Source of the DNA: Bacteroidota bacterium
Lineage (GTDB): Bacteria > Bacteroidota > Bacteroidia > NS11-12g > UBA955
Direction of reading: 5' to 3'
Length of the DNA: 64,000 nucleotides
Assembly (NCBI GenBank): GCA_027621365.1
Contig: JAQCBH010000001.1
Span: 1 to 64,000, forward strand
The notes beneath the pieces were generated by a model. The model did not search any database, was not told the origin of the DNA, and saw nothing but the letters and a program-made list of their open reading frames with translations. This document shows, one piece after another, positions 203-5,814 of this stretch; the stretch's first letter is position 1, and every line of letters begins with the position of its first letter. Both the position numbers and the translations under genes were made by a program.

Positions 203-1684
203 TCAGCGCAGCCGGGCCGCCAAACCGAGCAACAGAGCGGTTATCGCTCCGTTCACGATCAACAATTCAAATCCGAATTGGTACTGCTGAAAAGGAATTT
301 GCTTCAAGCAGTAGATGAGTAAAGGTGAAGTCATACAAGCTAAGACCAGGGCTGTGCCTGAAGGCTTCCAAGAAGTAAACATCCCGACAAAGAACAAACC
401 CAGCAAAGGGCCATAGGTATAATTGGCCAGGTCAAGAACAGTATCGATCAAAGCCTGTTGATTGAAGGCCTTAAAGGCCATGATGCTGGCCCACAAGGCC
501 ACGGCAAAACCAATGTGCAAGTAGCGGCGATAGCGCAGTTTCTGCTCGTCGCTCAAGTCCGCTCTGGCATCCAAGTTCCACAAATCGAAATAGGTACTCG
601 TGGTTAAGGTGGTCAAGACGCTATCGGCACTGCTGAAGGTAGCGGCCGCCAATCCCAACACAAACGACAAACCCGCCACCGGGCCCAATTGGCTCAAGGC
701 AATATGCGGGAAGAAAGAATCAGTCAAGGCTTTTCCATCCTTCACCTGCTGCAGCAGAGGGTCGGCGCTGGCCTGCAAGAACTCGATCATCAACACACCC
801 AAAGACAGAAAGAACACATTCACCAAGAACACCACCACAGCCGTGGCCACCATGTTCTTTTGAGCGTCTTTCAAGCTGCGGCAAGACAGGTTTTTTTGCA
901 TCATGTTCTGATCCAAGCCCGTCATGGCGATGCAAATGGCCGCCCCTCCCAAGAAGTGCTTCCAGAAATAACTTTTCGACCAGGGGTCCAGGTTCAACCA
1001 CTCGCTGTGCGGGCTGTTTTGCACCAGAGAAAAGAAACCTTGCTCGCGCAAATCAAGCGGCAAACCCTGGTAAAGGGCGTAGATGCAAATCGATAATCCG
1101 CCGATGAGGAAGGTACTTTGCAAGGCATCGGTGATCACCAAGGTAGAAATGCCCCCCTTGAAGGTATAGAGCAAGATCAGCGCGATGATCAAACTCACTG
1201 AAAGGCCAAAGGGAATGCCCCAAGGGCCGAACAAAAAGGTCTGTAAAATCGCAGCCGTCAGGTACAGTCGACCCGCCGCACCCAAGAGTCGGGAAACCAC
1301 AAAAAACAAAGACCCCGTTCGCTGGGCGCTCATACCGAATCGCCCCTCCAAATAGGTATATATGCTGGTCAAATTGTGCTTGTAATACAGGGGTAACAAC
1401 CAATAGGCAATGGCCAAATAGCCCAACACATAGCCCATGACCACTTGCAGATAGCCAAAATTGGCCTTCCAAACGGCACCGGGCACCGAAATGAAACTCA
1501 CTCCGCTCATGCTGTCGCTGAGCATGCCCAGGGCGACCAAATACCAGAGGCTTTGGCGATTGCCCAAGAAATAGCCGTTGTCATTGGCCTTTCTACCTGT
1601 CCACCATCCAACGGCCAAGAGCAGTCCAAAATAGAGCAACAAAGCGGCCAATACCAGGCCAGGGCTTAAGGATAAAGTTTCCAT
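203..1684 (-). CDS. Sodium:solute symporter (SSS/SLC5 family)
   Basis: A 493-residue, strongly hydrophobic protein with about 13 predicted membrane segments. It shows the SSS N-terminal pattern: a first helix, then GWWTGRKANDNGYFLGNR, then a second helix with SDSMSGVSF. Family knowledge: inner-membrane Na+-coupled uptake of sugars, amino acids, pantothenate or similar solutes; the substrate cannot be read from the sequence. Its ATG shares its first base with the TAA of the upstream gene (TAATG), so it is translated as the last gene of the minus-strand cluster that starts at 5814. Length is normal for the family. Confidence 0.9.
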   Translation of the reverse strand: METLSLSPGLVLAALLLYFGLLLAVGWWTGRKANDNGYFLGNRQSLWYLVALGMLSDSMSGVSFISVPGAVWKANFGYLQVVMGYVLGYLAIAYWLLPLYYKHNLTSIYTYLEGRFGMSAQRTGSLFFVVSRLLGAAGRLYLTAAILQTFLFGPWGIPFGLSVSLIIALILLYTFKGGISTLVITDALQSTFLIGGLSICIYALYQGLPLDLREQGFFSLVQNSPHSEWLNLDPWSKSYFWKHFLGGAAICIAMTGLDQNMMQKNLSCRSLKDAQKNMVATAVVVFLVNVFFLSLGVLMIEFLQASADPLLQQVKDGKALTDSFFPHIALSQLGPVAGLSFVLGLAAATFSSADSVLTTLTTSTYFDLWNLDARADLSDEQKLRYRRYLHIGFAVALWASIMAFKAFNQQALIDTVLDLANYTYGPLLGLFFVGMFTSWKPSGTALVLACMTSPLLIYCLKQIPFQQYQFGFELLIVNGAITALLLGLAARLR

Positions 1685-5314: not shown

Positions 5315-5814
5315 AGTGTGATGATTTCAGAGGAACGGAAATGGGTGTCGTAGATGGCGAAGGTGGAGGCGCCCATTTGACCGGCAATTTCTCCTGGATT
5401 CAAAAGCAAGGAAGGCCCGTATTTCTGACGGTGTACCTGATGGCTATGCCCGAAAAAGACCGCGTCGTACCAACCGGTCTTGACCATGGTCTTGGCATAA
5501 TAGGGATAATGAGTAACCCCAAACGATTGGCCATCCAAGACCAACTTTTGGCCCTCATCGCCGATGTATTCTCCGTACAGTTTCAGGTTGGGGTATTCCT
5601 GGGCCACTTTGGCCATTTGAAACCGATCGCCATCGTTATTGCCAAACACGGCATGAACATTCAGGCCCGATTCGGCCAACATTCGCGCTGAAAAGGGGGC
5701 ACAGAAATCTCCGCAAAAGACCAAATCGGTAACGTTGCGGGATCGAATGTTAGACAAAGCCATTTCCAAGGCCTTTAGGTTGTCATGAACATCGCTGAGA
5801 ATGGCAATTTGCAT
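5311..5814 (-). CDS. YfcE/MJ0936-family metallophosphoesterase
   Basis: 167 residues with the complete calcineurin-like set of metal-binding motifs: SDVHDN (D-x-H), CGDF (GD), GNND (GN-N/H), THYPY and GHSHQ. Family knowledge: a dinuclear-metal phosphodiesterase; substrates of bacterial relatives vary. This is the first gene of the overlapping minus-strand cluster running to 203. Upstream a TATTTTCG element differs from the -7 consensus by one base and sits 3 nt before the ATG. Length is typical of the small YfcE group. Confidence 0.88.

Follow-up and report, generated by a model that had tools for sequence, protein, structure and literature searches.

Organization of the five-gene run

Five genes lie on the minus strand of the window, by which we mean the whole 64-kb stretch of Bacteroidota DNA that was analysed, and run from position 5814 down to position 203 with successive overlaps of 4, 4, 10, and 1 bp. 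These overlaps confirmed the first-pass annotation, in which every junction had been reported to overlap by 1–10 bp, and its homology calls for the phosphoesterase, the NlpC/P60 hydrolase, and the symporter were also right (Metallophos_2 and YfcE; NLPC_P60 with SH3; SSF). The features of the locus were as follows.

5853..6200, plus strand: divergent 4Fe-4S ferredoxin gene, upstream of the run
5311..5814, minus strand: YfcE/MJ0936-like metallophosphodiesterase, 167 aa (PF12850, 1.4e-28; TIGR00040; MJ0936)
4583..5314, minus strand: NlpC/P60 peptidase with an N-terminal SH3b domain, 243 aa (PF00877, 4e-17; PF18348, 2e-10)
4143..4586, minus strand: all-helical orphan protein, 147 aa, predicted to be cytoplasmic (no signal peptide), with a Gly-rich C-terminal helix
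1684..4152, minus strand: predicted exported protein with leucine-rich repeats (LRR) and a C-terminal module, 822 aa (AlphaFold2 model, pLDDT 85, pTM 0.74)
4087..4152, minus strand: predicted signal peptide of the LRR protein, MVLKKAGFWILGFCWAFLAQAQ (from sequence; N-terminal helix in the model)
3403..4038, minus strand: LRR solenoid, residues about 39–250 (alternating strands and helices in the model; Foldseek)
1687..3255, minus strand: C-terminal module, residues about 300–822 (beta domains, a long helix at residues 635–683, and a beta domain)
203..1684, minus strand: sodium:solute symporter (SSF) family transporter, 493 aa (PF00474, 1.8e-21)
113..134, plus strand: terminator-like hairpin with its T-run on the plus strand, 69 bp beyond the symporter stop

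Overlaps of 1–10 bp were found in 8 of the 29 same-strand ORF pairs of the window. Because four of these eight belonged to the run, which was also the only one in the 64 kb with at least three overlapping genes, the overlap density was above the local background, and the overlaps suggest that the five genes are translated jointly. The source contig starts 202 bp beyond the symporter stop, and positions 1–202 show the end of a converging plus-strand gene (...FTHDTF, stop near 88), which the hairpin may serve.

Phosphodiesterase and NlpC/P60 peptidase

The phosphodiesterase scored 70.6 bits with TIGR00040 (cut-off 56.25), which placed it in the YfcE subfamily, and it matched MJ0936 in the PDB at 1e-21. 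In the other genera of the family, the ferredoxin gene is co-directional with the NlpC/P60 gene and upstream of it, whereas the phosphodiesterase gene is on the opposite strand; in the window's genus the two genes (5311–6200) are inverted as a pair relative to the rest of the family. Since it is this inversion that makes the phosphodiesterase the first gene of the run, the five-gene run is genus-specific and the phosphodiesterase is a recent recruit to it through local inversion.

The nearest matches of the NlpC/P60 protein were Bacteroides dipeptidyl-peptidase VI (2e-14) and YkfC (7e-12). When the protein was aligned to solved YkfC-type enzymes, its catalytic triad, C146-H197-H209, was invariant across 18 relatives. 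The triad and pocket residues of YkfC were those described by Xu et al., in which the pocket consists of Tyr118, Tyr226, Trp228, Asp237, Ser239, Arg255, and Asp256 (PMC2954226). These S1/S2 pocket residues corresponded to Y52, Y134, W136, D145, S147, R163, and D164 of the window protein, all invariant in the 18 relatives; the mapping was made by eye from alignments, with Y52 placed on a weak SH3b alignment. Ser257 of YkfC was replaced by Ala165, and an alanine is also present in the Bacteroides and 2hbw enzymes. The YkfC subfamily has two N-terminal SH3b domains; here one Pfam SH3 match was obtained (residues 13–57), and residues about 65–117 had no Pfam assignment. There was no signal peptide on the window protein or on any complete relative, as is also the case for YkfC of B. 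subtilis (PMC2954226) and of chlamydiae (PMC9928106), the chlamydial enzyme acting on the free tripeptide (PMC9928106). The presence of nearly all the YkfC-subfamily residues and the lack of a signal peptide indicated that the protein is likely to function in cytoplasmic tripeptide recycling, and this part of the run is ordinary.

An Mpl-like ligase gene was present in the genome, with a score below the cut-off of the model. No YkfB dipeptide epimerase, a component of the YkfABC recycling system, was detected in the genome (94% complete) or beside the peptidase gene. The single MR_MLE_C match above the cut-off was considered as a YkfB candidate and rejected: its closest models were MenC and a MenA-like gene adjoined it, which indicated a MenC-like protein.

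Small protein and LRR protein

The small protein is 147 aa long from an ATG, or 149 aa from an upstream TTG, and it had no Pfam, NCBIfam, or PDB match. Its AlphaFold2 model was all-helical (pLDDT 86), and a fold search with this model gave no match (best E-value 2.1); globin-like fold hits had E-values above 2 and were rejected. In the labels used here, g1 is the window's genus and f1 the window's family. The small protein was found in 21 of 35 genomes of f1, being missing from some g5 and g6 genomes, and in none of the 22 from the order's other family; a search of class genomes outside the family gave one weak match. The 147-aa protein is therefore an orphan restricted to the family.

For the 822-aa protein, Foldseek with the model returned LRR proteins at a probability of 1.00. 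The Pfam LRR match of the single sequence was below the cut-off, and a profile (A3) matched LIC11098 at 6.5e-24. The solenoid was visible in the model, with which profile and fold search agreed; the label LRR-like in the first-pass annotation thus held when the structure prediction proposed there was made, and the protein contains an LRR solenoid by this predicted structure. Sub-threshold Pfam matches to PYRIN and T2SSN, each in one member, were rejected, as were NCBIfam matches to XopL, XopAE, and XopAC, which were far below their cut-offs and limited to the LRR part. Of the 35 f1 genomes, 31 had an orthologue of the LRR protein. A search with the single protein found none in the order's other family (22 genomes), and no full-length orthologue outside f1 emerged when profiles were run against the order and the class.

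Symporter and gene order in relatives

PF00474 covered residues 38–438 of the 493-residue symporter with 77 bits (cut-off 22.8), which indicated an SSF core. The best match among solved structures was 5nv9 (5e-25), followed by the sodium/iodide cotransporter, and none of the specific NCBIfam models reached its own cut-off. Residues 347–356, near the expected Na2 site, read AATFSSADS, and some relatives (g8, g9, and one g6) have FPSVDG or YPSADG. Given this variation, ion coupling may differ among the relatives.

The usual block in the family consists of FKBP, YjbR-like, MORN, and uridine kinase-like genes, the phosphodiesterase gene on the opposite strand, and the ferredoxin, NlpC/P60, small-protein, LRR, and symporter genes. 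The last four were contiguous in four genera (g1, g4, g5, and g6). In g9 and g12 (L060; L065:4286-5827), a gene for a HerA-like ATPase (PF05872) was located between the NlpC/P60 and small-protein genes, and in g12 the small-protein and LRR genes were additionally 5.7 kb apart. The first-pass annotation regarded its cluster as refuted if the gene order was not conserved beyond close relatives, and this was partly the case: the five-gene order was limited to the window's genus, and the four-gene order was not found outside the window's family, which is uncultured.

The LRR and symporter genes were adjacent in 11 genera (g1–g6, g8–g10, g12, and g14), and 15 of the 19 junctions measured were within −4 to +3 bp (an overlap of 1–4 bp or a gap of at most 3 bp). 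In g2, g14, g8, g3, and g10 the pair was not beside the NlpC/P60 gene. In g2, g14, g10, and g3 it was kept among different neighbours; g8 was not taken as independent evidence, because the break there is between the small-protein and LRR genes and both sides keep their own flanks. The symporter gene was 6–9 kb from the LRR gene or on another contig in g13 and g7, and 30 kb away in g11. In g13 and g7 the LRR gene bordered other genes; in g13 it shared a 4-bp overlap with a YigZ/UPF0029 gene, RibD was close by, and the symporter was not adjacent (L085:7538-8152). Throughout family f2, symporter orthologues occurred without the LRR protein. One genome of the set (G021) lacked the LRR protein and the orthologous symporter, and two others (G006 and G033) had neither the LRR protein nor a symporter. 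Co-loss of the pair in the latter two was weakened as an argument, because the NlpC/P60 and small-protein genes were also absent from them, so that one missing segment or an assembly gap could explain the pattern. The link between the NlpC/P60 and small-protein genes was weaker than that of the LRR-symporter pair, since they were adjacent only inside the conserved block and the small-protein gene lay elsewhere in g2 and g14.

C-terminal module and neighbouring ECF sigma genes

The C-terminal module (residues about 300–822) had no Pfam or NCBIfam family and no convincing PDB match. Matches to Pizza/PknD propellers were dismissed, no single stretch being convincing, and a ZU5 assignment of the first domain gave no match at an E-value of 1. 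The module matched proteins in 169 of 295 genomes of the class, mostly through its first approximately 140 residues, and in 25 of 297 genomes of a phylum-wide sample, which was drawn differently from the class sample. Sixteen homologues were read for their N-termini and neighbouring genes.

L123, L126, L128: LRR or LRR-like N-terminus
L124 (1060–3156): OmpA domain at the N-terminus
L127, L138: signal peptide only
L134: lipoprotein-like N-terminus
L125, L131: N-terminal hydrophobic segment
L129, L130, L132, L133, L135, L136, L137: membrane-anchored, with a short cytoplasmic segment and one membrane helix

An ECF sigma gene was directly upstream of all seven anchored module genes (Pfam recognized four, and a profile made from these recognized the remaining three) and of none of the other kinds among the 16 read. 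Near L127 there is a separate, divergent sigma gene, after which a different anchored protein begins. Several of the anchored proteins carry the N-terminal motif YxINxxREKLSExEIxxxMDF. Because the sigma gene was directly upstream in all seven, the anchored proteins look like putative anti-sigma factors whose periplasmic sensor would be the module, and the sigma/anchored-module pairs resemble undescribed sigma/anti-sigma pairs distributed across the class.

The downstream neighbour of the anchored module genes encoded a secreted protein, which in L132 (2–457) passed the GldM_3rd cut-off; likeness to this third domain of GldM was weaker in L133 (2382–2888) and L135 (2841–3404). This hinted at a link of the anchored module genes to type IX secretion or gliding. 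The LRR-module gene of L128 was divergent from gldM.

No sigma match was found at the loci of five LRR orthologues, one of them from the window's genus, and the window protein has a signal peptide and LRRs in place of the cytoplasmic N-terminus and membrane anchor of an ECF anti-sigma factor. Lacking such an anchor and a neighbouring sigma gene, it is given a sensor role by extrapolation from the paralogues. A more speculative reading, which we consider doubtful, makes the module a class-wide sensing domain of the periplasm that has not been described before; ECF anti-sigma factors would use it as their sensor, and LRR and OmpA carriers would have adopted it as well. In the window's family, the carrier with LRRs might then sense or gate for the sodium symporter.

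Interpretation of the locus

We interpret the run as a composite operon in which at least two functional units are joined by local synteny and the LRR protein is a periplasmic partner of the symporter, a reading to which we assign a probability of about 0.5. The unit with the YkfC-type peptidase would share the transcript owing to gene order and would be unrelated to the symporter unit. In the latter, an inner-membrane sodium:solute symporter would be translationally coupled to the exported 822-aa protein, and overlapping translation would yield the two proteins in a fixed ratio. The LRR solenoid and the sensor-like module would most likely act in the periplasm as its binding, sensing, or scaffolding partner, with the LRR protein binding the solute of the symporter or a wall component, or sensing on its behalf. 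In this scheme the sequence itself establishes the genes, their overlaps, the conserved LRR-symporter pairing, the domains, the catalytic residues, and the presence of the module in putative ECF anti-sigma factors, and we infer the periplasmic location, the physical partnership, the substrate, and the direction of control.

The first-pass annotation had suggested muropeptide recycling from the combination of cell-wall peptide cleavage and uptake, and the co-directional overlapping genes and the YkfC-type peptidase bore out part of that claim. If all five genes formed one salvage pathway, the LRR protein would capture wall fragments, the symporter would import peptides, and the NlpC/P60 enzyme would cleave them, which would agree with the YkfC-type residues, the Mpl-like ligase gene, and the single continuous overlapping run. 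However, the LRR-symporter pair is separable from the peptidase unit in several genera, the phosphodiesterase gene is on the opposite strand outside the genus, the genome search revealed no YkfB epimerase, and we know of no peptide transporter within the SSF family; a single five-gene system is therefore improbable. A common transcript with no functional link is a possibility that we consider doubtful rather than improbable, because the flanking genes (FKBP, YjbR-like, MORN, and UDK upstream; arginine decarboxylase-like and MDH-like downstream) match the cluster in order conservation in several genera; against it, the LRR-symporter pair, often translationally coupled, is kept in four genera with different neighbours. 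A role of the LRR protein in the cell envelope or in type IX secretion, and not with the symporter, is unlikely: the LRR-module gene beside gldM in L128 and the GldM_3rd-matching gene adjoining the anchored module gene (L132, and less clearly L133 and L135) are consistent with such a role, but no gldM-like gene was recognized next to the family's LRR orthologues, whose consistent neighbour was the symporter.

Neither the small protein nor the module has a name in the libraries that were searched, and the remaining components are of known kinds; neither the module nor a pairing of LRR and SSF proteins came up in the open-licence papers searched. The analysis supplies context for two unannotated families: the exported LRR protein, module included, is linked to a symporter, and its paralogues extend the connection to putative sigma/anti-sigma signalling throughout Bacteroidia. 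Should the module be a sensor domain, a single biochemical study of it would shed light on many envelope proteins that now have no annotation.

Comparison with known systems

The phosphodiesterase resembles the YfcE/MJ0936 enzymes in its above-cut-off TIGR00040 score and its MJ0936 match, and differs notably from them only in the position of its gene. The peptidase shares with YkfC the NlpC/P60 fold, the N-terminal SH3b domain, the Cys-His-His triad, the residues of the L-Ala-gamma-D-Glu pocket, and the lack of a signal peptide; it is shorter (243 aa), with one clear SH3b match and PRDA in place of PRDS, and its gene adjoins that of the orphan helical protein instead of ykfB. The symporter has PF00474 and the 5nv9 match in common with the SSF family, which includes sialic-acid, iodide, and multivitamin transporters, whereas it falls below every specific NCBIfam cut-off and is paired with an exported LRR protein. 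By profile and fold, the 822-aa protein has the bacterial LRR solenoid of the Leptospira LRR proteins (4u06, 4u08, 4u09, and 7yjw), but with few repeats and an added C-terminal module of approximately 500 residues. In the putative ECF sigma/anti-sigma pairs of Bacteroidia, the same module is present in the part of the anchored proteins that is predicted to be periplasmic; in contrast to ECF anti-sigma factors, the 822-aa protein carries a signal peptide and LRRs in place of the anti-sigma N-terminus, the membrane anchor, and the neighbouring sigma gene.
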